Source: Saprospira grandis DSM 2844 (GTDB lineage Bacteria > Bacteroidota > Bacteroidia > Chitinophagales > Saprospiraceae). Taken from it: a stretch of DNA of 64,000 bases. The stretch spans positions 503,600-567,599 of the forward strand of contig NZ_JH719942.1 in NCBI RefSeq assembly GCF_000275825.1, read 5' to 3'. Below the pieces are notes generated by a model. That model saw only the letters and a program-made list of their open reading frames with translations, ran no database searches and had not been told where the DNA came from. Positions 1,536-15,896 of this stretch are shown here, in pieces (within the stretch, counting starts at the first letter, position 1; each line of letters starts with the position of its first letter). Position numbers and translations under genes: made by a program.

Positions 1536-4256
1536 CTAGATCTCAGCCAAAAGTTCTATCAACTCTCTTACCGTATAAGAACCCTTAACAGCCGTATTTT
1601 CTCTAAATACCATACAGTAGTTATACTGAAACCCATCTCCTAAAGCATTGGCATAACTTGCCCACTGGCCTCCCAAACGAGCTTTCTCTTTGGTATCTTC
1701 AGTAGCAGATAAATGCTCTCCCTTGGTTTCTACAAGGACAATCCCTTTATTTTTTGTATAGATTAAAAAATCAGGATAATGGTTAATGGGGCCATTGATA
1801 AAGAACCCTTTACGACTAGGTATGCGATGCCAAAACACAACATTATCTAAAGCTGCAACTCGATCTATTACCTCATTCTCAAATTTATTCCCATCTTCCT
1901 CTTTGGTATACAACCCCTTGGCTAGATTAGACTCTCCTTTAGCGGTATAGGTATTGGTTAAGGTAAACTGATAAGAAGGCCGAATTACCACCTTTCTACT
2001 CGCTAGCCTTTTGTAAAATTCCTTTTGAGCGAAGGAAGTACCACAACGATCAATATGATTTTTAATAATCTTAATCGCCTGCATATTGGTCGCCAAATCA
2101 TAGATCTCCTGACCTTTAAATTCGCCAGCCTCAAAAACTCTCAAGACATATTTCTTCAAATCCTGATCTGAATAAGGTGGCATCTTCCCCATCGAACTAA
2201 CTATTGCCTCGGCTGTTCGCTCTAGTTTCTTATCCCTATTGCTTTGCGCATTTAAGTAGTCTAAAAATCTGGATGTCTTGTTAGGGCTAAATCGACTATA
2301 TTTTACATTGCCTTCCCGACTGTTCTCTCCCTCTCGGATATCAATTTCATAAATCTCTTTATCTGAAGGATTAAAGTTAATGTCTACACTCGCCTTGGCC
2401 AGCTTAAAGTCTTCCTTCAATGATTCTTTATCAAAGAATAAATAGCCTGTTTCTTCCCTACCCCTCGAAAATAACTGCTCCAATTTCTTAGGCGCCTTTT
2501 GAAAAAATTGCGGCAACCGAATGCCCTCCACATAAGAACGATAATCTTCCTTAATAGAAGTGGTATTGATCATTTTTTTCATTCCGCTCTCTTGTTTACT
2601 TAGAAATGGGTCTTCTTCTCGCTCGGCAATTCGCTTATGCTGATCTTGCTGATGTACTGCTAATGCTTTCTCCGTCAACTTATCCAATAAAGCCGATCTA
2701 ACTTTCTCTTTTTGGGCAGGATCTGCAGTTTGTAATTCGGCTCGAATAGGCGCATTACTTTCTAGAATAGTATCTAGTTCCCCCTCATCTAAGAACTGAC
2801 TAATCGCTCCTCTTACTACCCCATCATCAATCGTACGCTGTACCCCCTCTACAAATTCTTCTTGCTCATCTAAAACGATTATTTCAGAGCGTTCCTTGGC
2901 ATCCGAAAACCCCGCCTTATTCAACCCCTCTACAATATTATCTAAGGTAGCCGTAAAATTACTTGAAGAGGTAAAGACATATGCCATATTGAGCAAAGGG
3001 TTCTTTTGCTCTCTTGTATAAGGTAGACGCAAGACACGCCCCAAGATCTGCTCTACATCTGTTTTTGAGGACTTACTAGCAATCGTAGCCAAAATATAGG
3101 CAAAAGGACAATCCCAACCTTCTTTCAATGCATTTACCGTAATGATATAGCGAATTTCACAATCTCTAGACATGAGGTCCACAGACTTCAATTCATTGAT
3201 GTATGCCGTCTTAATGGCAATCTGCTCTGCAGGAACCCCCTTGGCAATTAACTTCGCCTTGATCTTCTGAAAAGTTTCACTATCCTTTTTTGTCTTTGGC
3301 TCTGCCTGAAAAAGAACAATTGGCCGAATGTACTCATCTGCCTGCTCCCTAGCCGTTACTTCTAAGTTATGACGCATGTCTAAAGCCGAACTGATTACAT
3401 CCTGCGGCTTATTATGATTATAGACAATTACTGGCAACTTTATCATCTGCTCGTCTTTCAAACGACTGGCCGATATTACACTGATTAAGTTGCTATTCTT
3501 TCTAGGCGTAGCAGTCAAGTCCAATACAAATGAGGGATACATGTTCTGCAACATTTCTACACTCAAATCACTTTCCGCCCGATGGCTCTCATCTATAATA
3601 CAAATAGGACGAAGACTGCGGATGACATTCATCAATGAATATTTGTCCACCTTTTCATCCTCTAAAAGAAAATCCGTATTGTTCAATACATCTATGAAAG
3701 GAGCCAAGGCTCCATTCTCCCGATAAATGAGACGATCCACTTTCTTTCTGGACCGAAAGCTGTCAAAACTCATCACCAAGATGTTTAACTGCTCTCGTAC
3801 CGAGCCCACATTAAAACTCGCTCCCTGCAAAACCTGATCCTTGCTATAAACAGCGACTCTATTATTAAATAATACGTTCAATCTCCGCCGATAAGGATGC
3901 TCCGGGTCCTTTAAGTTGTTTAGCGTTTGCTCTAAAATTGTATTGGAGGGCACTAACCATAATACAAGGTTAGCCTGCGTAGCTGGCAAAGCTTCCGCTA
4001 TTTCCCCCAAAGCATTACAAGCTAAAAAAGTCTTCCCGCCAGCCGTAGGCACCTTTATACATACATGCGGAATCTCCGCACCCAAGTTCGGCTTGTAGGC
4101 CTGCATCCCGTCTACTATATTCTCGCTCTTCATCTGAACGCCCTGAGACTCCCAGAAAAACTTAAATGCCGATTTTAAATCCTTTTTTTGCTCCCAGCAT
4201 TCAATAAATCGTCTTAGGTCTTGAATGACTTCCTGTTGGTATTCCTTTAATTCCAT
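1536..4256 (-). CDS. res: Type III restriction enzyme, Res subunit
   Basis: Restriction subunit of a type III restriction-modification system: an ATP-dependent helicase/translocase coupled to an endonuclease, which works in complex with Mod. Of 906 residues, the Walker A motif PTAGGKT is at 70-76. A DEAD-like box (IIDESHRAE) and a helicase C region with GRVLRLP follow. A C-terminal PD-(D/E)xK nuclease motif is visible as YPDFLIY followed by VLVETKGEH. Length is normal for the family and all motifs are intact. The gene follows mod by 83 bp on the same strand, the usual order, and ends against GC-rich copy 2. Confidence 0.95.
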   Translation of the reverse strand: MELKEYQQEVIQDLRRFIECWEQKKDLKSAFKFFWESQGVQMKSENIVDGMQAYKPNLGAEIPHVCIKVPTAGGKTFLACNALGEIAEALPATQANLVLWLVPSNTILEQTLNNLKDPEHPYRRRLNVLFNNRVAVYSKDQVLQGASFNVGSVREQLNILVMSFDSFRSRKKVDRLIYRENGALAPFIDVLNNTDFLLEDEKVDKYSLMNVIRSLRPICIIDESHRAESDLSVEMLQNMYPSFVLDLTATPRKNSNLISVISASRLKDEQMIKLPVIVYNHNKPQDVISSALDMRHNLEVTAREQADEYIRPIVLFQAEPKTKKDSETFQKIKAKLIAKGVPAEQIAIKTAYINELKSVDLMSRDCEIRYIITVNALKEGWDCPFAYILATIASKSSKTDVEQILGRVLRLPYTREQKNPLLNMAYVFTSSSNFTATLDNIVEGLNKAGFSDAKERSEIIVLDEQEEFVEGVQRTIDDGVVRGAISQFLDEGELDTILESNAPIRAELQTADPAQKEKVRSALLDKLTEKALAVHQQDQHKRIAEREEDPFLSKQESGMKKMINTTSIKEDYRSYVEGIRLPQFFQKAPKKLEQLFSRGREETGYLFFDKESLKEDFKLAKASVDINFNPSDKEIYEIDIREGENSREGNVKYSRFSPNKTSRFLDYLNAQSNRDKKLERTAEAIVSSMGKMPPYSDQDLKKYVLRVFEAGEFKGQEIYDLATNMQAIKIIKNHIDRCGTSFAQKEFYKRLASRKVVIRPSYQFTLTNTYTAKGESNLAKGLYTKEEDGNKFENEVIDRVAALDNVVFWHRIPSRKGFFINGPINHYPDFLIYTKNKGIVLVETKGEHLSATEDTKEKARLGGQWASYANALGDGFQYNYCMVFRENTAVKGSYTVRELIELLAEI

Positions 4257-4339
4257 CTTTGCTCTTGTCTGTTAATGCACTGTCTATATAATATGTATCT
4301 TCTCGCTATGGCTTTAAGGCTTGCGTTCACTCCGCCTCC

Positions 4340-6100
4340 CTATATTCTAGCTATATCTCTCGGAATCTTCTTAAAGATAATATTCCCCGATGCTAAAAAT
4401 TCATCTCCAATCAAACTTAAGTCAGCATAAATTACAACACCCCTTATCTCATCTGATGACAACTCTATCTGCTCCAAAAACTTATAGGTCAAATGACAAC
4501 TCTCTTCTTTCTCATAAAAAAAGAAATAGTCCCGATCTTCATAAGTCCCCATAAAGTAGGGGGCCTCCGCTCCCCTTTCCCGATAGCCTTTCAAAGAACC
4601 CGTCTCCGTATAAAATATATACTTCCGCAATTCCTCTTCCTCCAAATCCTCATTCAAAAAGTTGGGATTGCTCTCCTTAAATATGCTCGGCCCCAAACGA
4701 TAAAATCCAAAGTCTCCTCCCAGACCCGCTACGGCTTTAGCCCCTTCTCCATATCCATCTATCACTCTGCGTACCCGCTCCGCCGTGATCTGCTCTGCAT
4801 AATCCTCCATCTCTATCAAAATAAACTGACGATTCCCCCCATCTTCTTTGTTTAACTCTAATACCGCCTGGGCCGTTGTCCCCGAACCCGCAAAAGAATC
4901 TAAGATGATGGAGTCGGGGTCTGATAAGTTTTTAATTATCTGTTTAGAAAAAGCACAAGGCTTAGGAGTACTAAAATGTATTTTCATATTTTTTAAAAGC
5001 TGATCATCACTCCCTCCATACCGAAAAATAGAGCTTATATTTTCCTGCATGTTTTCATGCAGAAAATACTTCCTCGTAGGTTGAGTAGACTGATCTTCCC
5101 CAAATAAGATACGACCTTCTTCTAATAGCCGCTGCATTGTTTGTGGCGGATTTCTCCATCCTCTAGCCGGCACCGGACAAGCGTTTCCAGTTAAAGGATG
5201 TTTTAATGGAATAAAATATTCATCTGGCGCTTGCTTTTTATTTGGCCAAGCCATTGAAACTCCACGATAGACTGCTCCTGAGCTATCTATATATTTATAC
5301 GCTAGTTCGCCCCCTGTAAAATCTTGCTTTTTAAGCCATGCTTGAAATTCAGCATTAGCATCTTCTAATGAATAATTCTTTTTCAGGTGCTTATATTCCT
5401 TAATATCTATATTATACTTCTTGGCAACTTTTACAAAGTCTTCAGGATAAATAGTTTGTCCAATTTTGGAGTAATACTTCTTTGCCGTAGCTAACATTTT
5501 TAAAGCGTTCTTTTTATCCTGCTTTAAAAGCAAGTCAAACTTTTGCACATCTTTAGCGTATAGCAGAATACTTTCATGTTGACAGGATATCCTCTTAGTA
5601 TCTCCTTTTGGGTTTTTTTTATCCCAAACTATTGTCCCTAAACTGTTCGTAGATCCAAAAATTTCTTCTAAAAGAAATAAAAAACTATGGTATTCATTTT
5701 CATCAATATGAATTATGATAATACCATCCTCTGCCAGCAATTTATGCAATAGTTTTAGCCTAGGGTACATCATACAGAGCCATTTATCATGTCGGCTCAG
5801 GTCTTCACTTTCTTTACCGACCACCTCGCCCAGCCACTTCTGGATCTTAGGGTCTTTCACATTATCATTATAGACCCAGCCTTCGTTTCCGGTATTATAA
5901 GGGGGGTCAATATAGATGCACTTAATTTTGCCTTCATAGGCGGGCAACAAAGACTTTAGGGCCAGCAAATTATCGCCATGAATAATCTTATTAGCACTTT
6001 GGGCTGCACCATAAGTATAAGAAAGGGAAAGGGGACGATAAGGAACATCCAAATGATGCGTAAGCACCTTTTCCTTTCCTATCCAATTTAATGTAGGCAT
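4340..6100 (-). CDS. mod: Type III DNA adenine methyltransferase, Mod subunit
   Basis: N6-adenine DNA methyltransferase that gives the type III system its sequence specificity and protects the host DNA. The catalytic motif DPPYNTG is at residues 65-71, and the AdoMet-binding motif FAGSGTT lies near residue 400. This order is typical of beta-class Mod proteins, with the target recognition region between the motifs. The 586-residue length is ordinary and the frame is intact. It is the first gene of the mod-res pair. The upstream region holds no gene, only the right-hand composite repeat. Confidence 0.95.
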   Translation of the reverse strand: MPTLNWIGKEKVLTHHLDVPYRPLSLSYTYGAAQSANKIIHGDNLLALKSLLPAYEGKIKCIYIDPPYNTGNEGWVYNDNVKDPKIQKWLGEVVGKESEDLSRHDKWLCMMYPRLKLLHKLLAEDGIIIIHIDENEYHSFLFLLEEIFGSTNSLGTIVWDKKNPKGDTKRISCQHESILLYAKDVQKFDLLLKQDKKNALKMLATAKKYYSKIGQTIYPEDFVKVAKKYNIDIKEYKHLKKNYSLEDANAEFQAWLKKQDFTGGELAYKYIDSSGAVYRGVSMAWPNKKQAPDEYFIPLKHPLTGNACPVPARGWRNPPQTMQRLLEEGRILFGEDQSTQPTRKYFLHENMQENISSIFRYGGSDDQLLKNMKIHFSTPKPCAFSKQIIKNLSDPDSIILDSFAGSGTTAQAVLELNKEDGGNRQFILIEMEDYAEQITAERVRRVIDGYGEGAKAVAGLGGDFGFYRLGPSIFKESNPNFLNEDLEEEELRKYIFYTETGSLKGYRERGAEAPYFMGTYEDRDYFFFYEKEESCHLTYKFLEQIELSSDEIRGVVIYADLSLIGDEFLASGNIIFKKIPRDIARI

Positions 6101-6256
6101 TCTACTATAGCTTTAACAGTTTGATTGAATCTTTACGAAAAGCAATATATAGGTTTTTAACAAAAATTGCTAGCCCAAAGCCCTCGGAGCTTTTTTCAGC
6201 CTTAGATAAAGCAGGATTTAGGCCTTTTTCGCTATAATCAGCAGGATGATTTTTTT

Positions 6257-6372
6257 GGGGCCTGCCGCCTTTGGCGGCCGGGCCCTTGCAGGGCTCGCAG
6301 CTCTGCTCGGCCCTGCGTCGCCTTTGGCTCCTTGGTCTGCGGCTGCGCCGCCCCCTTTCAGGCCCCTAGGCC
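6257..6372 (+). repeat. GC-rich structured element, copy 3
   Basis: Arm hairpin CCGCC-TTT-GGCGG and core GCAGCTCTGCTCGGCCC, where the GCAG/CTGC stem is kept and only the loop is changed. The GGTCTG hairpin has switched from GGCC/GGCC to GCGGC/GCCGC. Closing helix GGCCT/AGGCC. Forms a + / - pair with copy 4. Confidence 0.9.
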
Positions 6373-6388
6373 GATTTGGCCTCCGGCC

Positions 6389-6484
6389 AACCCTAGGGCC
6401 AAGGCCCTAGGCTATCTAAAAAATCGCCATCCCCTCATTCGAGGGGATTTGCATTCCAGCCAGCCCCTAACCACATTCCCTAAA
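6389..6484. repeat. 96-bp direct repeat, right flank of the R-M locus
   Basis: Partner of 448-544, in the same orientation and differing only by one A in a homopolymer. Here it fills most of the spacer between GC-rich copies 3 and 4. The remaining spacer (GAAGATGGCCCAAAG..GATGAG) resembles the sequence before copies 2 and 14. Confidence 0.9.
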
Positions 6485-6532
6485 CCGCCCGGCCGCCGAA
6501 GAAGATGGCCCAAAGAAAACATAAAAGATGAG

Positions 6533-6657
6533 CGGCCTAGCGATGTGTAGGGGTGGCGCAAAGCGCCAGACCAAGCGGGCCTTAGCCCGCGCAGGGCCGA
6601 GCAGACCTGCGAGCCCCGAAACGTAGCGCCGCAAGGCGAAGCCGCGGCGGAGGCCCC
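6533..6657 (-). repeat. GC-rich structured element, copy 4
   Basis: Intact core AGGTCTGCTCGGCCC and closing helix GGCCT/AGGCC, read on the minus strand. Its GGCGC-TTT-GCGCC hairpin replaces the usual GGCC/GGCC arm. The T-run side points outward, so copies 3 and 4 have their GGGGCC ends outermost. Confidence 0.9.
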
Positions 6658-6688
6658 AAAAAAGGCAAAAAAAAGGGAAAAAAAAGGC

Positions 6689-6717
6689 AAAAAAAAGCCC
6701 CCTACAGAGGAGGGGGA
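6689..6717 (-). terminator. Rho-independent terminator of the CnrX-like gene
   Basis: Hairpin CCCCCT-loop-AGGGGG followed, on the minus strand, by a run of T. It lies about 50 bp downstream of the stop codon at 6767. Confidence 0.75.
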
Positions 6718-6766
6718 TATCTGGCTAGCGTTTAGGCGAATTGGCTAAAAGAGAAAGTTTGGGGTT

Positions 6767-7207
6767 CTATTTTTCTAGTAGGATAGCTTTTAGCGTATGG
6801 GCCAACCATCTTTTAAAGGACTTCTTTTGTTCTTCATGGAGGAGGGCTTCTACTTTTTCGAAATGTTCGTAGGTAACAACTACCTTTTGAGATTGGAGTG
6901 ATTCAATATCTTGGATAATAGTTTGTTGGTTGCTTACTTTATTTTGGCTAACGAGCGGGCTAAAGTACCTCATAACCAGGTCATGTTCTTGGAGGTGGAC
7001 CTTTTGCATTTGCTGCAGATGTTCGTTTACGAGTAGAATAAACGCTTGTTCTTGTTCATTGCTTAAGTTAAGTTCTTGGGTGGTATCTTCTAATCGTGGG
7101 GGGCCTTTTGGGGGAGGGGGGCTAAAGAATAGGAAAAGGGTAATTAGGGAAATATTTAGTAGGAGAAGGCCTAAGCTCAGGTATTTATAAAACTGTAGCT
7201 GCTTCAT
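6767..7207 (-). CDS. Membrane-anchored CnrX-like periplasmic metal sensor
   Basis: 146 residues: a short cytoplasmic start, one hydrophobic segment at about 11-29 (LSLGLLLLNISLITLFLFF), then a helical periplasmic domain with LSNEQEQAFILLVNEHLQQMQ and late EQKKSFKRWL. This arrangement matches the heavy-metal-sensing CnrX/NccX/Spy-like family by fold, as inferred from segment order and helix content. Its start overlaps the preceding stop as TAATG, so it is translationally coupled. With the small membrane protein and ECF sigma factor upstream it forms a CnrH-CnrY-CnrX-like arrangement. The metal is unknown. Confidence 0.65.
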   Translation of the reverse strand: MKQLQFYKYLSLGLLLLNISLITLFLFFSPPPPKGPPRLEDTTQELNLSNEQEQAFILLVNEHLQQMQKVHLQEHDLVMRYFSPLVSQNKVSNQQTIIQDIESLQSQKVVVTYEHFEKVEALLHEEQKKSFKRWLAHTLKAILLEK

Positions 7208-7497
7208 TATTGATAAATTTTATAATTAGACATTAGGCTAATATTGGGGTTATTGCTTTGTTTTTGGGTGGACAGTTGTCTATTTTGTTGAAGGGCTTGG
7301 ATGGTCCAGAGATTTAGTATTAGGAGGCCTACTAGGGCGGCGGCGACAATAGAAAGCTGTTTGAGTTGGATAACTTTTGATTGGGAGGCTAGCTCTTGTT
7401 CAATTTTGGTAAACAGTTGAGTTGGCGGTTTTGCTTTGGGTGCTCCTTTCATGCTGTAGAGCACATTATTTAGTTGTTCTTCTTTATTGTTATTCAT
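7207..7497 (-). CDS. Small single-pass membrane protein, probable anti-sigma factor
   Basis: 96 residues with a soluble N-terminal half (about 1-45), a predicted membrane helix at about 48-70 (LSIVAAALVGLLILNLW) and a polar C-terminal tail. I do not recognise the family by sequence. The gene starts 49 bp after the ECF sigma gene and is fused by a one-base overlap to the CnrX-like gene. By analogy with CnrY, this small membrane protein would hold the sigma factor inactive at the membrane. That role is inferred from gene order only. Confidence 0.6.
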   Translation of the reverse strand: MNNNKEEQLNNVLYSMKGAPKAKPPTQLFTKIEQELASQSKVIQLKQLSIVAAALVGLLILNLWTIQALQQNRQLSTQKQSNNPNISLMSNYKIYQ

Positions 7498-7546
7498 AGA
7501 AAATAATTTTAGGGTGACTTTATATATTATTAGACTTCAGAAGGGG

Positions 7547-8104
7547 TTAAATCCTTCGGTTGGGGTAGGATTTTTCTAGTTTGGATCTAAGATTTTTTTT
7601 TGCTCTTTGGAGGAGGGATTCTACGGCTTTTAGGGAGATGCCCATAATATTGGCTACTTCTTGTCGGGGTAAATCCTCGACAAAGCTAAGGATAAAAGCT
7701 GTTTTTTGTTTATTGGCCAAGCTTTCAATAAACTGAAAGAGCAGTTTTGCATTTTCTTTATTTTCGAGAATCAGGGCGGGGTGTTCAAAGTCTGTTTGTT
7801 CTTTTTGGGTATAATTTAGTTGAAAGAGGGTTAATCGTTTTTTCTTTTTAATAAAATTGATGGATTTATTGACTGTAATTCGGTAGACCCAAGTATTGAC
7901 AGCAGCCTTAGCTTTAAAATTGGCGGCGGCTTGATAGATGCTTGTAAAAACATCTTGTGTAACTTCCTCGGCATCTTGAAGATTCTGGGTATAGCTAAGG
8001 GCTGTATTAAAGACCTTTTCTGCAAAGAGCTGGTAGAACTGCTGAAAAGCTTGGCGGTCTTCAGCGGCGATACGGCTTAATAATTCCTCAGCGTTAACAT
8101 TCAA
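7547..8104 (-). CDS. ECF-family RNA polymerase sigma factor
   Basis: 185 residues with both ECF regions. Region 2 contains DAEEVTQDVFTSIYQ and NTWVYRITVNKSINF (about 40-80). Region 4 contains LPRQEVANIMGISLKAVESLLQRAKKNLR (about 145-175), a helix-turn-helix. There is no extra domain. It heads the three-gene sigma / membrane protein / CnrX-like operon and is probably released by a periplasmic signal. The adjacent YHYH and TonB genes are the natural candidate regulon, but I found no clear shared promoter motif. Confidence 0.9.
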   Translation of the reverse strand: MNVNAEELLSRIAAEDRQAFQQFYQLFAEKVFNTALSYTQNLQDAEEVTQDVFTSIYQAAANFKAKAAVNTWVYRITVNKSINFIKKKKRLTLFQLNYTQKEQTDFEHPALILENKENAKLLFQFIESLANKQKTAFILSFVEDLPRQEVANIMGISLKAVESLLQRAKKNLRSKLEKSYPNRRI

Positions 8105-8159
8105 AGCTTAGTATAATTTGATACTTATAACAAAGCGCTAGAATAGGGTGGTAGGAGCC

Positions 8160-8732
8160 TTATCTAGCGAGTAAATAATAAATGAGGGCGATAAAAACGA
8201 GGGCGCCTAGGGTGATCAGGAGGTAAGTGCTTAGCTTACTTTTAGGGGCTTCAATGATTATTGCTTGGTAGTCATTATTGGTGGAGAGGACAAGATGTTC
8301 TGCTTGGCCATTTAAGTGGTGGAAAAAGATAGTTTGATGTTGTTTATTCTCCTTAAATGCGGGGATACTGATCGTGGCTTCTTTTATATTTTGGGGTAGA
8401 TCTGAGAGGATAAACTTCAGGTCTGTTTGGTGGTTTCCTAGGCGCAGGCCGCCATCTTTTAAGGTAATTTTTTCTCCGTTGACCTTTAGTACAAATCGGG
8501 GTTTAATATATTCTATGATTAGTTGTTTGAGTTGGGTGGTTGTTTTGGTATTGAGCGATTCTTTGCTGTATTGTTTTAGCAGTGCTTGTTCTAGTCCGCT
8601 TTGGCTCAGGTTAACATTGAGGGTCCAATGATTATCTTCTTGATTTAGCTCATAGCGGGCGGAAAGCGGGTTATGGGCAAAAAGGCTGAAAGGGAGTAGG
8701 GTGAGGAGGAGATGGAATAGGATAAACTTCAT
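8160..8732 (-). CDS. Exported protein with C-terminal membrane anchor (paralogue B)
   Basis: 190 residues: signal peptide (MKFILFHLLLTLLPFSLFA), a mature start HNPLS, a beta-rich soluble domain with KPRFVLKVNGEKITL, and a C-terminal helix at about 169-188 ending in LLAR. It has the same plan as 10945-11592 (signal peptide, AHxP start, NGE or NEG lysine-rich strand, LGH/LGN motif, C-terminal helix), so the two are paralogues. Some features resemble DUF6702 proteins, but I cannot confirm this. It lies between a terminator and the ECF sigma gene. Confidence 0.6.
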   Translation of the reverse strand: MKFILFHLLLTLLPFSLFAHNPLSARYELNQEDNHWTLNVNLSQSGLEQALLKQYSKESLNTKTTTQLKQLIIEYIKPRFVLKVNGEKITLKDGGLRLGNHQTDLKFILSDLPQNIKEATISIPAFKENKQHQTIFFHHLNGQAEHLVLSTNNDYQAIIIEAPKSKLSTYLLITLGALVFIALIYYLLAR

Positions 8733-8758
8733 TTAGGCAATGCTTTAGTGGTTGAGTA

Positions 8759-8792
8759 AAAAGGGGAAGAGGTGATCCTCTTCCCCTTTTTG
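8759..8792. terminator. Strong bidirectional terminator
   Basis: Near-perfect hairpin AAAAAGGGGAAGAGG / CCTCTTCCCCTTTTT around TGAT. On the minus strand it closes the transcript of the YHYH gene ending at 8819 and separates it from the paralogue-B and sigma genes. Confidence 0.85.
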
Positions 8793-8818
8793 GTTTAATC
8801 ATATTTAGTTTGCTGTAT

Positions 8819-9814
8819 TTAGTTATATTGGAAAGCATTTTGGGCGGCCACGCCCTTTAGGCATTGGGGTACATTGGGTGCGCTAGTTGTGCTAGCTACA
8901 TAGTGGTAGACGCCATCGGGGTATTCGTTGGTTATGGCTGTTCTTCCGCCGCAGTCATCTAGATCTGTAGGAGTAGTAGCATAAGCATAGATAGGAAATC
9001 CATCTTTGGCAAAGCCTACTAATTCGGTAGTAGTTGTTTGAGTAATTTTGGTACAAGAGGTAGCGGTAATTCCGTTGGCTACAAGTACTTGATTCATTAC
9101 TTGAGGGACAAAATGCCAGTGGTAGTAGCCAGCGGGGTCATGATGTCCACCACAGGGGTCTAGAGAAGGGATATTGATTTCTGTTGCTGTACCGCCGGTA
9201 CCGCCTGCTCCTCCACCTGGGCCATTCATAGCTGGTCCATTGATTGCTGAGGGGGGGTCACCATTGATGGGGACGCCATCTAGAGAGAGGCCGATGAGTT
9301 CTATTTCTTCGATATCATTATTAGTTGCGGCTAATTTAGGGTTGGCCGGAATAATGAAGGTGAGTTCTAGGTCATCGTTGGGTGCAGCATCTAAGCAATT
9401 AGACTGATCCATATTGATAGTCCCTGAAACAAAGTCATAGATATTCACATTGCCGCTAGAGTCTACGATATCGTAGCCATCGGCTTCCATATCATTGAGA
9501 AAATCGGCTGCCCAGAGGCGGAGGCCGGGGTTAGTTGCCCCATCATAGACGCTTAATCCGGCTACATCATTAACTGTTTCGGCACAAAAAGGGCCATTAG
9601 CTACGGGGTTGCTAGAGAAGCTAAGTTGGAAGCAATCGGCGGTAGTTCCGTCTTCTAGGGTTGCGGTAATGAGTTCAAAGCTCAGCAGTGAATTTGCGTT
9701 AAATAGTGATTCCTTGATGAGGTAATCTTCTGTGGGGGAATCTTCATCTGTTTTATTGCAAGCGGAGAGGCCAAAAAGGCCTATTATGGCTGCTATATAA
9801 ATTAGATTTTTCAT
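8819..9814 (-). CDS. YHYH-domain lipoprotein 1
   Basis: 331 residues. The N-terminus MKNLIYIAAIIGLFGLSACNK is a lipoprotein signal with lipobox LSAC. The C-terminal half carries the histidine-rich motifs of the YHYH family in degenerate form: GGHHDPAGYYHWHF and DGVYHYV, plus a glycine-rich linker (GGGAGGTGG) and a DDCGG motif. It is more divergent than the other two YHYH proteins here. YHYH proteins have no established biochemical role; the conserved His, Asp and Cys clusters suggest metal binding, which is inference. It is the last gene before the terminator at 8759. Confidence 0.8.
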   Translation of the reverse strand: MKNLIYIAAIIGLFGLSACNKTDEDSPTEDYLIKESLFNANSLLSFELITATLEDGTTADCFQLSFSSNPVANGPFCAETVNDVAGLSVYDGATNPGLRLWAADFLNDMEADGYDIVDSSGNVNIYDFVSGTINMDQSNCLDAAPNDDLELTFIIPANPKLAATNNDIEEIELIGLSLDGVPINGDPPSAINGPAMNGPGGGAGGTGGTATEINIPSLDPCGGHHDPAGYYHWHFVPQVMNQVLVANGITATSCTKITQTTTTELVGFAKDGFPIYAYATTPTDLDDCGGRTAITNEYPDGVYHYVASTTSAPNVPQCLKGVAAQNAFQYN

Positions 9815-9840
9815 ACTTAGGATTTTTTTTGGTTAGATAA

Positions 9841-10935
9841 TTATTCGGCCCAGGCGCCATGATAGCATTCTAAGATTTCATTATTTTCTAGGGGCATAAC
9901 ATGGTAGTGATAGCCTCTAATTTCGTCATAATGTCCGCGACATTCGTCCAGATCGGTAGGTTCATTTCCATTGACATCATATTGTGCGTAGAGTCCGTGT
10001 CCATCTAAGGCGTAGCCAATCATGGGGGCGTGTCCATCTGCTTGAGCGATACGTGTAGTGAGGCCCATATCTCCGTGATAGTGGTAGCCCAGGCGGTTAT
10101 TGACATGTCCTCCGGCGTCATCGACGGGGGCGAGTTGGTATCCGGCGAGGATAATATTAACATCTGCGGGGTGGTCAAAGCGGACGCCATTAAAGGCTAG
10201 TCCTCTAACTAGGGGGCCATAACTCACGCCAGCTTGGTCAAGAGTTGGTCCATCGCCAAGTGTGGTAGAATTAGCTTGAATAGTTGGTCGAACGGGGATG
10301 AGATAGCTTTCTTGAGCGTTTACCCAAGAGGGTAGGCATTGGGCGCACATATTCATATATTGGTCTTCAATATTGGGGTCGGCGCCCTGTTCGCATTCTT
10401 GTTGAGTAGTGAAGCGGTAGACATTTCCGTTAGCGTCATGCATTTTCCAGCTTGTATCATTATAAAATACGGCTAGATTTTCAATAAAGGGTCCATCTAC
10501 ATCGTAGAGGACGCCATTATCCATCCAGAGGCCTCCATCTTCTGGTCCATCAGAAATATGTTCTGGGCACCAGGGTCCCATTTGGTGATCGGTGGGGATA
10601 TGTTTAGAAACAATTTCAAAACATTCTGTTTCTGTGCCGTCGGATAAGGTACAGGGTACACGGTTTATCGTAACATTTCCATCTGTAGTAATGAATAGAG
10701 TTTCATCTACTTCATTGACAACATAGGGGCTCGTATCGTCATTATCTAGACTATTATCTACGTATCCTGTTGGTTGTTCGCAGGCAGTTTTGCTGATGGC
10801 AGGATTTCCTAGTCCGTCGGCGTCGGTATCTTCATACCAGAGGGTATCTTCACAGAGGGGTTCATCATCTCCGCAGGCCCAGAGGAGTTGCAGGCTTAGG
10901 AGGAGGAGCAAAGCATATTTCAGTTGATTTTTCAT
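9841..10935 (-). CDS. YHYH-domain lipoprotein 2
   Basis: 364 residues with lipoprotein signal (LLWACGDDE). An Asp-rich stretch DTDADGLGN near residue 40 resembles a thrombospondin type 3 calcium-binding repeat. The long domain with GPWCPEHISD, ECEQ and CAQCLPSW is followed by the YHYH region: DDAGGHVNNRLGYHYHG, then ALDGHGLYAQYD and DECRGHYDEIRGYHYHV. It is closely related to 14499-15494, and both contain the signature GYHYH twice. Three conserved Cys pairs suggest disulphides in an exported protein. The gene lies 26 bp upstream of YHYH 1 and directly after paralogue A. Confidence 0.85.
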   Translation of the reverse strand: MKNQLKYALLLLLSLQLLWACGDDEPLCEDTLWYEDTDADGLGNPAISKTACEQPTGYVDNSLDNDDTSPYVVNEVDETLFITTDGNVTINRVPCTLSDGTETECFEIVSKHIPTDHQMGPWCPEHISDGPEDGGLWMDNGVLYDVDGPFIENLAVFYNDTSWKMHDANGNVYRFTTQQECEQGADPNIEDQYMNMCAQCLPSWVNAQESYLIPVRPTIQANSTTLGDGPTLDQAGVSYGPLVRGLAFNGVRFDHPADVNIILAGYQLAPVDDAGGHVNNRLGYHYHGDMGLTTRIAQADGHAPMIGYALDGHGLYAQYDVNGNEPTDLDECRGHYDEIRGYHYHVMPLENNEILECYHGAWAE

Positions 10936-10944
10936 GGCTTTATT

Positions 10945-11592
10945 TTAAAGATTTGGCGTGGGTGGGGCTATTTTAGATTGTTTATTAAGGAGTAAAAAAA
11001 TTGCTATTCCAGTTAGCAGGATGCCTAAGACAAGAACAAGAGCATAGACATTAGTTTGTTTTTCTGCGCTAGGGTCTAGGGGTTCAAATTTATTATCTTC
11101 AGCTTTGAGGTATAGTTGATGATTATTTTCTTTATTCATCATAAACTGATTTTTGGCGAAGCCTTTTTTTAGTACAATCAGGGCGGCTTGGTTTCTGGAG
11201 ATATGTTCAAAGCTAGTGTTCTTCACCTCTATAAGGTTCATATTGTCATGTTGTCCTTCTAGTTCAAAAGTAATACTGCTTTCATGTCCTAGGCGAACTT
11301 GGGGTTTATTCAGTTTAAGGCTTTCGCCCTCATTAAATTTCACCGACAGGCTTTGTTCTATTTGCTTAACGACCAATTCTTTAAACTCTTCGGCTGTTTT
11401 ATAGGCATCTTGGCCAAAGCGTGCAGCTACTTCATATTCGAAGGCGGTAAGGGAGGCTCGGATTTGGACAATCCACTGTCCGTTTTCTTTTTCCATTAAG
11501 ATGGTGGAGGACAAATTGGGTTGGTGGGCCCAGAGCCCTGTTGTGGAGCAAAGGAAGAGGAGCAATAGGCTATATTGAATGATCTTTTTCAT
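10945..11592 (-). CDS. Exported protein with C-terminal membrane anchor (paralogue A)
   Basis: I chose the start at 11592 because the methionine there begins a clear signal peptide (MKKIIQYSLLLLFLCSTTG). The reading frame is open nine codons further upstream. The mature protein starts AHQPN, has a beta-rich domain with FNEGESLKLNKPQVRLGH, and ends with a membrane helix (YALVLVLGILLTGIAIFLLL) and a short tail. It is a paralogue of 8160-8732. It stops 10 bp before YHYH 2 starts, which suggests co-transcription. Function unknown; possibly an adaptor for the secreted YHYH proteins. Confidence 0.6.
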   Translation of the reverse strand: MKKIIQYSLLLLFLCSTTGLWAHQPNLSSTILMEKENGQWIVQIRASLTAFEYEVAARFGQDAYKTAEEFKELVVKQIEQSLSVKFNEGESLKLNKPQVRLGHESSITFELEGQHDNMNLIEVKNTSFEHISRNQAALIVLKKGFAKNQFMMNKENNHQLYLKAEDNKFEPLDPSAEKQTNVYALVLVLGILLTGIAIFLLLNKQSKIAPPTPNL

Positions 11593-11686
11593 GCTGTATA
11601 ATTTTATAGTGGTGATCAATGCTTAGAAGCTAATTATTCAAGATATTTTTGGGGTTTGCCCCTCTCCTATTGGTTGGGGTTTTCTT

Positions 11687-11823
11687 GGCCCAGCGCTGCG
11701 GAGCGGGTGGCCGTCAGGCCAGACCGAAGGCGAAACGAAGTGTAGCCTGAAGGGCCGAACGAACAGTGAGCCCCGCAGCATAGCGGCGGCCGCCCGCCCT
11801 TTTTGGGGCGGCCGCGGGCCCCA
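11687..11823 (-). repeat. GC-rich structured element, copy 5
   Basis: Core variant CACTGTTCGTTCGGCCC: relative to CGCTGTTCGCTCGG both members of one pair changed (G-C to A-T). Closing helix GGCCC/GGGCC. The GGGGCC end lies four bases past the stop codon of the TonB-dependent receptor, reading in the same direction. Confidence 0.85.
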
Positions 11824-11827
11824 AATT

Positions 11828-14047
11828 CTAGAACTTATATTGCATGACTGCCTTGAGGAAAAAAGGAGTTCCGGGCGTAAAGTGAATTTCCTCTACCGAT
11901 TCGCTTTCATTAAAAAGGCGAGATTCGGTGGCAAACTGTGTTTCGTTCCATGCTGTATTAAAGAGGTTTTGAACCTGCACAGCAAAATCAAATTGTTTAT
12001 ATCCATAGCCTAGGTTGGCATCGACAAGCGTGTATCCTTCTGCTACGATAGAATTATCTTCATTGGCGGGGCGGTCATTGATATGTCTTAGGTTGAGGCT
12101 CCCATAAAGTCCGCTAGGGTGTTTATAATTCAGGCCAGCTTGGAGGGTGAAATCTGCTGCTAGGGGGATATAATCTTGGCCGATTTCCTCCTCTATACTT
12201 CGGGCGTGGGTATAATTGGCATCCAGGTTAAAAAAGAGGGGAGCAATAGGTTGGTATCGATAGCTAAGGTCTATACCTTGTCTTTGGCTACGGCCAGAGG
12301 GTTCTACAATACCGGCATCGCCTACATAGACAAACTCTTGTTCCATATAGAGGTACCAATAGGCCATATTGAGGAACATTTTGGGGCTAATTTTCCAGTT
12401 ATAGCCTAGATCGAAGCCATAGGTAGCGGGTAAAATTTCGTCTAAATTTTGGGCAATGACTAGGCGGCTATCATTGGAGTGGAAGCCCTTTCCTCCTTTG
12501 AGGTAGAGCTGCAAGCGATTGGATTGTTGGTAAGCGATATTGAGTTTTGGGCTCAAAATGCTTTTTGTTGTAGCGCGATGGTCATATTCGCTGCTCAGAT
12601 GGTTGGTATAAGCAAAATCAAAATAATCTAGGCGCAAGCTGGGCTGGATCAGCCATTTGCCAATATTTAATTTTGCGCCTAGATAAGCAGCGGCATTTTT
12701 TTCTTGGATATCGCCAAATTGGATTTGCTCCAAAACGGTTTGGCGATTGACCGTATGAGAGAGTTCATTGTCTATAGATTCATCGGCTCTTAGTTGTAGG
12801 CCAGCGATCAGGGCCCCTTCTAACTGATTAAAATGAAAGAAGCGATTATACTCTGTATTTAGGCCGTAGATATTTCGATCTTCTTGCTGTTTGATTTGGT
12901 CGCCATTGATGCTATCTTCTAAGAAGAAGGTAAAATTAGAGTAGAGTTCAAAATCGTACTTGCTCCAATAGAGGCTAGTTTTGATCAAAGAATGCGCATC
13001 AATAATTTTTTTGTGCGCCAAACGAATATTTGTTCGGCTGGTTTGTCCGCCTTCGGTATCATCTATAGCTCCAAAGCGGCTAATGAGTCCTTGTTCTACT
13101 GCTCGTGTAGGAATTTGGCCCGAGGCGTCCCAACTACTTTGAAAATGCGAGGCCGTAATATTTATTTGATTATTTGGGGAGCTATTTAGGCTATATTTAG
13201 CAAAGAGATTGAGCCGATCAAAGTGCTGGGGGCTTTCAAAATAGCCATCAGTTGCTTGATAATCGCTAGCGATATAAGCCGATTGCTTTTCGCTATTAAA
13301 TAATTTAAAAAGCCCCAAAACACGGGCACTATTATATTGGCCAGCTTCTAGTTTAATCAGATTGTTTTCTAAGTAGTTTTTTGTTTTAAAATTGACATAG
13401 CCAGCTGTAGCAAAATTACCTTTTTGCTCATTGTAGCTTCCTTTTTCAAACTGAATTTGCTCTACCGTTTCAGGAATCAGAAAATGCAAATCTGCATAGC
13501 CCTGCCCATGCGCATGAGAGACCATATTTACGGGCATATCATCTACCGTGATGCTCAAATCGGTGCCGTGGTCAATGTCAAAACCACGTAGAAATATCTG
13601 CTCGGCTTTTCCTCCCCCAGCATGCTGCCCAATAAAAAGACCAGGCACTTTTTTTAATAAGTCTTGAGAAGATTTTACGGGCTGCAACTGCAAATCAATA
13701 TCAGAAAGGAGCTGTAGGCTATTCACCTTATTGTTGATGACAACTTCTTCAAGCTCTACCGCCAAATCATCTAATTTTACAATAATAGGACTGTCCGTTT
13801 GGACCACCAACAATAACTGAGGGCGATATAAAAGATGTCGAAACTCTAAAGTATCTCCAACAGCCACTTTTTCTAGCTGAAAATTACCCCGCAAATCACT
13901 GTGGCTATGCTGCTGATTGGCCCTGTTGATAACAGTCGCCTCAGCAATAGGAGAAGAGCTCTGATCTAGGATCTGCCCTTCTAGGGTTTGTGCACGCAAA
14001 CTAATAGAGAAGGTCAATAATAAAGCGGAAAAAAAAATAAACTTCAT
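11828..14047 (-). CDS. TonB-dependent outer-membrane receptor
   Basis: I placed the start at 14047 (MKFIFFSALLLTFSISLRAQ, a signal peptide), because the open frame upstream runs through a terminator. The 739-residue product has a carboxypeptidase-like regulatory domain (LEGQILDQSSSPIAEATV), a plug with LRGFDIDHGTDLSITVDDMP and HAHGQGYADLHF, and a beta-barrel ending in aromatic FFLKAVMQYKF. The HAHGQGYADLHF signature defines a receptor subfamily seen in several phyla; its substrate is not known to me. The setting with YHYH lipoproteins, EF-hand protein and metal-sensor-like operon suggests cation or metal uptake, by inference. Confidence 0.9.
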   Translation of the reverse strand: MKFIFFSALLLTFSISLRAQTLEGQILDQSSSPIAEATVINRANQQHSHSDLRGNFQLEKVAVGDTLEFRHLLYRPQLLLVVQTDSPIIVKLDDLAVELEEVVINNKVNSLQLLSDIDLQLQPVKSSQDLLKKVPGLFIGQHAGGGKAEQIFLRGFDIDHGTDLSITVDDMPVNMVSHAHGQGYADLHFLIPETVEQIQFEKGSYNEQKGNFATAGYVNFKTKNYLENNLIKLEAGQYNSARVLGLFKLFNSEKQSAYIASDYQATDGYFESPQHFDRLNLFAKYSLNSSPNNQINITASHFQSSWDASGQIPTRAVEQGLISRFGAIDDTEGGQTSRTNIRLAHKKIIDAHSLIKTSLYWSKYDFELYSNFTFFLEDSINGDQIKQQEDRNIYGLNTEYNRFFHFNQLEGALIAGLQLRADESIDNELSHTVNRQTVLEQIQFGDIQEKNAAAYLGAKLNIGKWLIQPSLRLDYFDFAYTNHLSSEYDHRATTKSILSPKLNIAYQQSNRLQLYLKGGKGFHSNDSRLVIAQNLDEILPATYGFDLGYNWKISPKMFLNMAYWYLYMEQEFVYVGDAGIVEPSGRSQRQGIDLSYRYQPIAPLFFNLDANYTHARSIEEEIGQDYIPLAADFTLQAGLNYKHPSGLYGSLNLRHINDRPANEDNSIVAEGYTLVDANLGYGYKQFDFAVQVQNLFNTAWNETQFATESRLFNESESVEEIHFTPGTPFFLKAVMQYKF

Positions 14048-14087
14048 TAGATTTTTGTTTAGTGAGCCCCCAAGATATTTTTTTATA

Positions 14088-14118
14088 AAAAAAAAAGGGC
14101 AACCCCAATTGGCTGCCC
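14088..14118 (-). terminator. Terminator after the EF-hand gene
   Basis: Imperfect hairpin GGGCAACC..GGCTGCCC with a long T-run on the minus strand. It lies between the EF-hand stop and the receptor start, so the two genes are probably separate transcripts or attenuated. Confidence 0.6.
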
Positions 14119-14146
14119 CTAAAAAAACAAACAAGACTGTAGTTAT

Positions 14147-14425
14147 CTAATCCTCTCTACGGCCTCGAGCTCGTTTCTTTTTTTCTGGTTTGGGAGCGTT
14201 TTCTAGCTCCTCAGGGCTAATAAAACCGTCCTGGTTGGCATCAATTGTAGCAAAACCTTTTTTCAAAGGACCTTTTACCTCCGATTCTGCAAGCAAGCCA
14301 TCTTGGTTGGCATCCATTTGTTCAAATACTTCTTCTGTAGTAGGAGGCGCTTTACGCTCTCCTCTTTGTGCGTTACAATTCAATGCGATAAAAGCAAAGC
14401 TAACAGCCATCATTAGAGTTTTCAT
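14147..14425 (-). CDS. Small secreted EF-hand protein
   Basis: 92 residues. The signal peptide ends near NCNAQ at about 20. Two EF-hand loops follow: DANQDGLLAESE and DANQDGFISPEE, each with the Asp/Asn/Asp ligands and a terminal Glu. They are followed by a basic tail (KKKRARGRRED). The loops should bind calcium. The protein would be periplasmic or exported. It sits between the TonB-dependent receptor and a YHYH gene on the same strand. Calcium-dependent assembly or sensing is possible but not shown. Confidence 0.85.
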   Translation of the reverse strand: MKTLMMAVSFAFIALNCNAQRGERKAPPTTEEVFEQMDANQDGLLAESEVKGPLKKGFATIDANQDGFISPEELENAPKPEKKKRARGRRED

Positions 14426-14498
14426 AAGTTTCTATTTTGTGGTGTAAAATTAAAACTCTGACCTCACGCTATTAAATTAGTTTAAACGACAATGAAAT

Positions 14499-15494
14499 TT
14501 ATTCTACATATGCCCCTTTTAAGCAATTGATAAAGTTGTTGTTCCCCGCAGCATCTACATGATAATGATAACCTCTTACTTCATCATAATGCCCTCTGCA
14601 ATCATCCAAATCTGTAGGTTCATTACCATCAGCATCCAATCGAGCATAAATACCATGACCATCCATAGCATAACCAATCAAATCCGCATGACCATCGTCC
14701 TGCGCAACAGCATAACTCAGCCCTGTTGCAGCATGATAATGATACCCCTGATTAACATTGACATGACCCCCCGCATCATCAAAAGGAGCTAGCGTATAAG
14801 CCCCCAAAATGTTGTTTACCGGAGCAGGTGCAGAAAACTCAACGCCATTCAAAGCCAACCCTCTTGTTGAAGGAATTGTACTTTGGCCCGGAGGAGGCCC
14901 AGGCTGCCCCGCCGTCATAAAATCTACAGCAACTTCCTGAAGAACGGGAGTCACCGGAATGGTCCATGTCTGACTAACCGTAGCAATGTAAGAAGGAATA
15001 CACTCTACACAGAAGTTTTCATATGTCGCCCCAACATTAGGATTGGCCGCATCTATACATTCTTGCTCTGTGTCTGTTGTGTAAATATCCCCATTGGCAT
15101 CATACATCTGCCAGGTTGTATCATTATAAAAACTAGCCATGTTCTGTACAAAGGCGCCATCTACATCATAAACTACTCCCCCCTCTAACCAAATCCCTCC
15201 AGCAGATGCATCATCGCTAATGTTGTCCGGACACCAAGGGCCCATCTGATGATCTGTAGGCATACTCGTCGTTACAATCTCATAACAATCCGTTTCTGTC
15301 CCATCAGAAAGCGTACAAGGTACAATCGTTATTGTGGTGTTCGTATTCGCCGCCGTAAAATAACTAGCCTCTACACTCACTACTGTTTCTTCACTGCCCG
15401 AAATATCTTCCTCATCCTTTTTACAAGCCGAAGTGGCTACTGCTAAGCCCAAAAATAAAAAGGAAGCCATTTTGAAGGATCTGTTCATAATCAT
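14499..15494 (-). CDS. YHYH-domain lipoprotein 3
   Basis: 331 residues, lipoprotein signal with ATSACKKDEED. The body parallels YHYH 2 closely: GPWCPDNISD, ECIDAA, CVECIPSY, then DDAGGHVNVNQGYHYHA, AMDGHGIYARLD and DDCRGHYDEVRGYHYHV. The linker is proline- and glycine-rich (GQPGPPPGQ). It is the first gene of the accessory locus in transcription order, with no gene upstream until 15900. Two in-frame methionines (codons 1 and 3) are possible starts. Role unknown, as for the family; histidine clusters suggest metal binding. Confidence 0.85.
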   Translation of the reverse strand: MIMNRSFKMASFLFLGLAVATSACKKDEEDISGSEETVVSVEASYFTAANTNTTITIVPCTLSDGTETDCYEIVTTSMPTDHQMGPWCPDNISDDASAGGIWLEGGVVYDVDGAFVQNMASFYNDTTWQMYDANGDIYTTDTEQECIDAANPNVGATYENFCVECIPSYIATVSQTWTIPVTPVLQEVAVDFMTAGQPGPPPGQSTIPSTRGLALNGVEFSAPAPVNNILGAYTLAPFDDAGGHVNVNQGYHYHAATGLSYAVAQDDGHADLIGYAMDGHGIYARLDADGNEPTDLDDCRGHYDEVRGYHYHVDAAGNNNFINCLKGAYVE

Positions 15495-15668
15495 CTCTTT
15501 TTGGTATTCTTACATTTAATACCCCTTTAGACCCTCCTCCCCATATAATCCTTCGCCCTTTGGTTGTTTTTTTTTTTTTAATTTCGCCGCTAAAAAATCC
15601 CCCCAAAGCACATACCTACAATGCGTGTTTTTTATTCGCCCAAATCTTTCTTCTCTATACTCATTTTT

Positions 15669-15784
15669 TGGGGCCTCCTGCCTGCGGCAGGCGCTACGCT
15701 TTGGGGCTCGCAGGTCTGCTCGGCCCTTCGCCAGCTTCGCTGCCTCGGTCTGGCCTGACGGCCACCCCGCCGCATCGCTAGGCC
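15669..15784 (+). repeat. GC-rich structured element, copy 6
   Basis: Arm hairpin CCTGCC-TGC-GGCAGG, a paired change from CCGCC/GGCGG. Intact core, closing helix GGCCT/AGGCC. Fills much of the gene-free region 15495-15899, with only T-rich and A-rich DNA around it. Confidence 0.9.
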
Positions 15785-15865
15785 TGCTCATCCATTTTTT
15801 TTTCTTTTAGCTTTTTTCTTCGGCAGTTTGGCTTTTGTTTTTTATTCCCCATAATTAACCCAAAC

Positions 15866-15896
15866 ACAAAAAAAGCCCCCTAAACAGGAGGCTTTA
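15866..15896 (-). terminator. Terminator of the cca transcript
   Basis: Hairpin GCCTCCT-loop-AGGGGGC with one mismatch and a T-run on the minus strand, just after the stop codon at 15900. Confidence 0.75.

Follow-up and report, generated by a model that had tools for sequence, protein, structure and literature searches.

The question raised by a block of ten genes in Saprospira grandis DSM 2844 is which ion it handles and what part its three lipoproteins of the YHYH family (PF14240) play in doing so. The block lies at positions 6767-15494, on the minus strand, of a 64,000-nucleotide stretch of contig NZ_JH719942.1 (positions 503,600 to 567,599; hereafter the window), its limits being those of the open reading frames (ORFs) read in the first-pass annotation of this DNA. 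That annotation had proposed a new metal or cation system made up of ten genes on one strand, and all ten are present on the minus strand. Its metal theme has been strengthened by relatives of the block, in which partner families support a transition metal as the common theme of the locus. We give slightly better than an even chance to the reading that the block encodes an envelope system whose ion is a divalent late transition metal, either copper or nickel, and in which each type of YHYH effector has its own metal-holding partner.

Phages, a giant virus, bacteria and diatoms all have YHYH proteins. These had been described in the first-pass annotation as lacking an assigned function, and no tested function for them was found in the literature searched, but phage YHYH domains have been predicted to be metal-dependent hydrolases, with a zinc site, on the basis of conserved histidine and aspartate residues (PMC7824862, accessible part of the article). 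A search by title and abstract opening, in which subscription journals are poorly covered, returned no paper describing this locus. In transcription order, the ten genes are the following.

14499-15494, minus strand: YHYH-A lipoprotein (PF14240), two GYHYH motifs (Pfam, 37.2 bits)
14147-14425, minus strand: small secreted protein with two EF-hand loops (two EF-hand stretches in the Pfam scan)
11828-14134, minus strand: TonB-dependent receptor with the HAHGQGYADLHF motif, accessory and not core (Plug and barrel over the Pfam cut-off)
10945-11619, minus strand: NH224, a 224-residue anchored protein, predicted N-terminal-histidine (HQPN) beta-sandwich with one C-terminal transmembrane helix, anglerase-like (sequence and model)
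9841-10935, minus strand: YHYH-B lipoprotein, two GYHYH motifs (Pfam, 41.1 bits)
8819-9814, minus strand: YHYH-C lipoprotein, YHWH variant (YHWH and YHY) (Pfam, 89.4 bits)
8160-8732, minus strand: DUF6702 protein, predicted N-terminal histidine (HNPL), one C-terminal hydrophobic segment (Pfam)
7547-8104, minus strand: extracytoplasmic function (ECF) sigma factor, Sigma70 regions 2 and 4 (over the Pfam cut-off)
7207-7497, minus strand: candidate anti-sigma factor, a 96-residue membrane protein with a single hydrophobic segment (weak anti-sigma match)
6767-7207, minus strand: Spy/LTXXQ-like periplasmic protein, candidate metal sensor (LTXXQ, 23.7 bits; cut-off 24.3)

All three YHYH proteins exceed the PF14240 gathering score of 25 bits and, as first described, two of them carry a doubled GYHYH motif. 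The receptor motif and the two EF-hand loops, which are of the calcium type, were likewise found as annotated. Neither the 96-residue protein nor NH224 reaches the cut-off of any Pfam family.

YHYH types and their neighbouring genes

Relatives were obtained by scanning GTDB genomes with 13 YHYH-A and YHYH-B proteins, which yielded 536 of them; the best 80 loci were analysed, and their genes were assigned by phmmer comparison (E-value 1e-4 or better) with seed proteins taken from the window and from relatives. A labelled YHYH-A/B gene is present in 79 of these loci (L141 has no labelled YHYH ORF). The 80 loci comprise 31 named groups, those from metagenome-assembled genomes without a genus being omitted from the group counts only. 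The grouping put forward in the first-pass annotation recurs well beyond the window: NH224-type genes are found in 72 of the 80 loci and accompany YHYH genes in 29 named groups; named isolates of Maribacter and Zobellia are among the carriers of YHYH-A together with NH224-type genes. An NH224-type gene comes directly next in 63 of 93 YHYH-A/B genes, and a DUF6702-type gene in 14 of 16 YHYH-C genes (the two others being followed by a different gene and by a contig end), while a MORN-like gene is next in 39 of 44 YHYH genes of a third type, present in relatives. SCO1-like genes occur in 37 loci from 15 named groups, where 0.65 loci would be expected by chance. The background for that expectation (128 matches in 60 relatives, 267 Mb) was drawn from the taxonomic order to which the window genome belongs, whereas most loci belong to the Flavobacteriia and share descent, so that an exact probability means little; the excess over chance is nonetheless large.

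Reverse searches with NH224 and the DUF6702 protein were carried out against 199 family genomes. NH224 matched 14 places in 13 genomes, and all 12 strong matches (E 5.4e-36 or better) lie within 0.6 kb of a YHYH gene or in the same frame as one, an EF-hand gene standing in between in G070. The DUF6702 protein matched 24 places in 20 genomes, 19 of them near a YHYH gene (11 of these being NH224-type genes again); the remaining five are not near a YHYH gene among the matches listed, except that L154 was judged by reading the region itself (5539-7716), where a DUF6702-like protein with no Pfam match has asparagine in place of the first histidine, a DUF3500 neighbour and no labelled YHYH neighbour. 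At the other extreme, L153 (8428-9990) joins NH224 and a YHYH domain in a single open frame of 521 residues, an apparent fusion or lost stop. Because these genomes overlap with the 80 loci (for example, L033 and L073 are the same genome), themselves related by descent, the forward and reverse surveys are not independent. The YHYH pairing in the 80 loci and the NH224 reverse search support a transition-metal locus.

Within Saprospira, S. grandis Lewin (L073) carries the same block, its YHYH-A being 96% identical, and 11.8 of 12.5 kb can be aligned with G001 at a DNA identity of 95%. G005 has kept the receptor, with YHYH-A reduced to its first 0.3 kb, and in G002 receptor and EF-hand matches lie adjacent elsewhere, with no YHYH gene; in neither genome was an N-terminal-histidine gene or a sigma-set match seen at the DNA level among the matches listed. 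Hence, N-terminal-histidine genes, YHYH genes and the sigma set are present or absent together in Saprospira, and the receptor can occur without them.

In Oceanihabitans (L080) a single strand carries, in order, genes for an ECF sigma factor, a small membrane protein, a Spy-like protein, an EF-hand protein, DUF6090, YHYH-A, an NH224-type protein, YHYH-C, a DUF6702-type protein, an EF-hand protein, two YHYH/EF-hand fusions, a further EF-hand protein, a third-type YHYH, a MORN-like protein and SCO1. The two fusions (12700-13899 and 14017-15144) differ in arrangement, the YHYH domain being joined to EF-hands on the N-terminal side in one and on the C-terminal side in the other. Recurring neighbours across the 80 loci include EF-hand genes similar to the seeds, present in 45 of them, together with a DUF6090 cluster in 30, LytTR-like regulators and sensor kinases in 29 each (for the most part on the opposite strand) and a CotH cluster in 18; one member each of the DUF6090, kinase and CotH clusters was tested, the rest of these clusters being assigned by eye. 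In L081 (6235-8848) and similar loci of a number of Flavobacteriia, the genes immediately upstream of YHYH-A encode an EF-hand protein, a CotH kinase protein and DUF6090, and a divergently oriented LytTR-type sensor pair is often present as well.

Predicted properties of the partners and of the YHYH domain

In both NH224, for which an ATG near 11592 is the likelier start, and the DUF6702 protein, a signal-peptide-like hydrophobic stretch ends in alanine and is followed by histidine (HQPN and HNPL, respectively), and both anchored proteins are thus predicted to start with histidine after signal-peptide cleavage. This feature, like the SCO1 and MORN-like genes of relatives, is an addition to the first-pass annotation. 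Alanine, serine or glycine followed by histidine is found after the signal peptide in 72 of 72 NH224-type genes and in 16 of 17 DUF6702-type genes, the exception having no N-terminus, and neither His1 nor His81 varies across 55 aligned rows of both kinds, the two window rows having been trimmed to start at histidine. The DUF6702 gene scores 30.6 bits against PF20420 (cut-off 24); NH224 has no match to this family, yet it is 25% identical (E 6.7e-8) to the window DUF6702 protein. For a DUF6702 protein, affinities of 5.6 pM for nickel, 3.6 nM for cobalt and 3.3 nM for copper have been published, and its first histidine belongs to the modelled site for these three metals (PMC12537917, accessible part).

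The AlphaFold2 model of NH224 (predicted local distance difference test, pLDDT, 93.8) resembles the copper-bound anglerase 9gce (RbAng-1a), with a Z score of 10.9 and a root-mean-square deviation of 6.2 over 136 residues at 11% identity, as well as ZrgA (Z 10.7) and PA4063 (Z 10.0), the next unrelated entry scoring 6.5. Foldseek returned ZrgA (E 9.7e-7) and 9gce (E 1.3e-4) for the same model. Each of these three structures was solved with bound metal, and the predicted fold of NH224 is accordingly that of a group of metal proteins.

As regards the YHYH domain, the residues kept in 25 of 25 rows covering three types include D272, H277, H285, H287, D311, D330 and H343 (YHYH-B numbering). The AlphaFold2 model of YHYH-A is of fair quality, with a pLDDT of 85.9 and a predicted template modelling score of 0.85, the other four models scoring 69-80. 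A fold search with it gave no PDB match, hydrolase or other, at E 0.001 (best 0.51), the best viral match having an E-value of 1.4e-3, and a sequence search against solved structures gave no significant relative (best E 0.49 and 2.6); the missing fold match is no proof of a new fold. Acidic residues after the lipid-bearing cysteine serve as a rule for surface export. Among proteins with a lipobox-like cysteine, which 5 of 93 YHYH-A/B proteins lack, at least two such residues are found in 46 of 88 YHYH-A/B, 32 of 44 third-type and 13 of 16 YHYH-C proteins, a mixed indication that YHYH proteins may reach the surface.

In the envelope system that we favour, the YHYH lipoproteins would be metal-binding effectors. 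Types A and B would have NH224 as partner and type C the DUF6702 protein, both tethered to the inner membrane, bearing an N-terminal histidine and holding the metal in the periplasm, while SCO1 would take this place for the third type in relatives. Metal may pass from partner to YHYH protein, loading it before export, or in the reverse direction, and the ECF, anti-sigma and Spy-like set would sense the metal and switch the locus. The more specific proposal, in which YHYH proteins would form a new class of copper or nickel proteins at the cell surface, of unsolved fold and each type depending for its function on a dedicated N-terminal-histidine or SCO1 partner, is tentative, and we place it somewhat below an even chance.

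Copper, nickel and competing readings

For the metal of the widespread locus, copper stands slightly ahead of nickel. CxxxC is retained in 38 of 38 and HTEN in 37 of 38 SCO1-like copies, one of which is truncated where its locus ends. The immediate neighbour of YHYH-A is MbnP in two organisms (L038/L152 and L042), and diheme CCP_MauG genes adjoin YHYH or SCO1 in L103, L118 and L152. Signs of nickel demand are few, with urease in none and NiFe hydrogenase in one of 17 genomes. Nickel, on the other hand, is preferred by the measured DUF6702 protein (PMC12537917, accessible part) and is suggested by the neighbourhoods of distant plasmid relatives of the receptor, discussed below. Moreover, in G150, the only genome of the 17 with a NiFe hydrogenase, the contig bearing the hydrogenase also has the NH224-YHYH frame (L153/L175). 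A NicO-like gene (scoring 20.0 bits, below its cut-off of 27.7) lies 4 kb from this frame, and some 8 to 17 kb separate it from the hyp and hydrogenase genes, of which HypA, a CobW/HypB domain and the large subunit were recognized by Pfam and the others by eye. The census of nickel enzymes was rejected as proof of the metal: besides the urease and hydrogenase counts, it found no Ni-SOD, a line that is empty because the search matched no control genome.

Several observations weigh against the envelope system proposed here. The metal is ambiguous, since the near absence of urease and hydrogenase is at odds with G150 and the receptor relatives, which point to nickel, and the window locus itself contains no SCO1, MbnP or MORN-like gene. 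Of the 93 YHYH-A/B genes, 30 are followed by something other than an NH224-type gene (9 by an EF-hand gene, 6 by other genes, 6 by a gene on the opposite strand, 6 by another YHYH gene, and one each by a receptor, a DUF6702 gene and a contig end), and 8 of the 80 loci have no NH224-type gene. The labels rest on similarity to seeds, and the loci are the best 80 of 536 and kin by descent; all three SCO1-like genes tested are over the Pfam cut-off, but the only DUF6702-type gene of a relative that was tested scores 20.4 (cut-off 24) and the only MORN-like gene 21.2 (cut-off 29.6). The ligands of PaDUF6702 (His1, His28 and His32 in the published, unaligned numbering; PMC12537917, accessible part) are not, by number, the invariant pair His1 and His81, and no metal-binding measurement of a YHYH protein was found in the literature searched, in which subscription journals are poorly covered. 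Finally, sulfatase-like genes, assigned by eye, occur in 12 of the 80 loci (9 in Arenibacter) and stand beside YHYH in L071 (10285-11583) and L156 (7864-9159); such neighbours speak for a role with polymers and not for one with metals.

The first alternative is metal uptake, in which the receptor would import a nickel or copper chelate and the YHYH and N-terminal-histidine proteins would pass the ion inward, much as a receptor does with an anglerase-HupE permease. The window receptor is directly followed by NH224. It matched 63 plasmid records, and nine regions were opened among the 25 listed. In five of the nine, distant relatives of the receptor (30-33% identity) have nikR, HoxN/NixA or hydrogenase genes no more than about 5 kb away, one of the five also carrying cobalamin genes; in a sixth, from Hymenobacter, the relative (49% identity) lies one gene from a HupE_UreJ_2 protein with an N-terminal-histidine pattern of its own; in three of the nine no nickel gene was seen, the plasmid gene table being incomplete. 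Two of the distant relatives were checked for the HGQGY motif and both have it. We nonetheless consider uptake unlikely. The Pfam scan revealed no inner-membrane permease among the ten genes, the receptor persists without an intact YHYH gene in G005 and G002, and its candidacy as a core part of the locus was rejected, because only 2 of the 80 YHYH loci carry one and inspection by eye of 20 of 55 family places revealed no constant neighbour. The unity of the locus, as first proposed, thus extends to its recurring modules but not to the receptor. As separate observations, a HupE/UreJ_2 gene adjoins YHYH in L059, and DUF4331-like proteins are found near the receptor family in L165 (annotated) and in L179 and L192 (by eye), two of those in L192 starting with HREAPL directly after serine.

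No more probable, in our estimate, is that YHYH proteins are metal-dependent hydrolases whose partners only load the metal, the locus serving to degrade or remodel envelope or algal polymers. Many of the host genera live on algae. The zinc-site prediction for phage members and the conserved histidine/aspartate set reported here would suit such enzymes, as would the sulfatase-like genes and, in L059 and L155, a gene judged phosphoesterase-like by eye that lies next to YHYH or not far from it. Nevertheless, the YHYH model has no hydrolase match in the PDB at the threshold given above and, outside Arenibacter, no frequent polymer-degrading family was seen by eye among the clusters listed.

Somewhat less probable again is metal defence, with surface and periplasmic sponges sequestering toxic copper or nickel under a metal-sensing sigma set. 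ECF, small protein and Spy-like genes adjoin YHYH in several genera (e.g., L023/L056, L070 and L152), and in the Spy-like proteins one histidine is conserved in all 18 rows and another in 16 of them (15 of 15 and 13 of 15 distinct organisms, three being represented twice). To this extent the Cnr-like sigma module of the first-pass annotation recurs; the name CnrX-like is weak, as the window Spy-like protein scores 12.7 bits against Metal_resist (PF13801; cut-off 29.2). The 96-residue protein matches an anti-sigma model at E 0.0073 (16.3 bits, cut-off 100). Plasmid YHYH genes with 42-48% identity lie near an RND efflux system in Acaryochloris (L166) and near a heavy-metal P-type ATPase in Paracoccus (L167), one plasmid each, and a third, from Falsirhodobacter (L168), has no metal gene annotated nearby. 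In the 80 loci, however, neither RND pumps nor P-type ATPases nor multicopper oxidases were seen by eye among the most frequent unlabelled clusters listed. A calcium-dependent surface or adhesion system, with EF-hand and YHYH proteins binding calcium, is improbable, for despite the frequency of EF-hand genes, the YHYH/EF-hand fusions of L080 and the CotH-like cluster (one member tested), we know of no calcium link for the N-terminal-histidine partners, SCO1, MbnP or the Spy-like protein, and the calcium type of the EF-hand loops does not by itself make calcium the ion handled.

Genomic setting and known systems

Four terminator-like hairpins accompany the block.

15872-15895, minus strand: terminator-like hairpin at the upstream end of the block (terminator scan)
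14095-14120, minus strand: terminator-like hairpin between the EF-hand gene and the receptor (terminator scan)
8759-8790, minus strand: terminator-like hairpin with T tail between the YHYH-C and DUF6702 genes (read in the sequence)
6698-6716, minus strand: terminator-like hairpin downstream of the sigma set (terminator scan)

The two internal hairpins correspond to the terminators annotated near 8759 and 14088 and are readable on the minus strand. That at 8790-8759 is nearly symmetric, the scan listing it on the plus strand only, and the scan as a whole found 19 terminators where shuffled sequences gave 20.7, i.e. not above shuffles. The receptor ORF as listed opens with a TTG shortly before the 14120-14095 hairpin and extends across it, for which reason translation more likely starts at an ATG at approximately 14047.

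Copies of a dispersed repeat lie at 6240-6700, at 11685-11845 (between the receptor and NH224 genes) and at 15655-15860, with many more in the window, and the end repeats of the locus are inverted relative to each other (6495-6663 and 15664-15824). G001, G002 and G005 gave 117, 117 and 138 DNA matches, most of which, among the matches listed, fall on repeat stretches, and the repeats may have helped in the gain or loss of the block. Just downstream (1536-6100), two genes resemble, by eye, the Res and Mod genes of a type III restriction system.

That cellular YHYH types travel with proteins of metal-binding families makes a direct and cheap test of the YHYH role available, and it provides the recently described N-terminal-histidine proteins with a frequent partner and, hence, with a pathway to look for. 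If the more specific proposal on YHYH surface proteins is true, the locus would represent a new kind of envelope metal system across marine Bacteroidota and the first pathway for N-terminal-histidine sequesterases.

Among known systems, CnrYXH (nickel/cobalt) groups the gene of a sigma factor with those of a small membrane protein and of a helical protein of the periplasm. The window has the same three-part arrangement, but its Metal_resist score is far under the cut-off and there are no efflux genes among the ten. Several nickel TonB receptors have been described, FecA3, FrpB4 and Bll6948 among them (PMC11247825, accessible part), and the likeness of the window receptor to these comes from the nikR and HoxN/NixA neighbourhoods of its distant relatives, not from direct comparison. 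For PF14240, the functional note in the accessible part of PMC7824862 concerns phage tail proteins, whereas the window members are lipoproteins in metal-linked loci. ZrgA and PA4063, periplasmic zinc proteins placed in a zinc uptake setting by the parts of the sources at hand, share the fold group predicted for NH224 at 5-11% identity. The window protein encoded at 8160-8732 resembles the PaDUF6702 sequesterase (PMC12537917, accessible part) in Pfam family and predicted N-terminal histidine, and differs from it in its membrane tether and YHYH neighbours and, apparently, in its invariant H81, against His28 and His32 there (unaligned numbering); the word YHYH does not appear in the main text of that paper. 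In the anglerases Ang-1 and Ang-2, finally, an N-terminal-histidine domain is fused to a HupE/UreJ-2 permease (PMC12537917, accessible part). NH224 shares with them the immunoglobulin-like beta-sandwich of its model and the N-terminal histidine, present as a sequence pattern behind a predicted cleavage site, but it has no PF13795 match, bears one C-terminal helix instead of the permease, is 11% identical to 9gce and is paired with YHYH lipoproteins.

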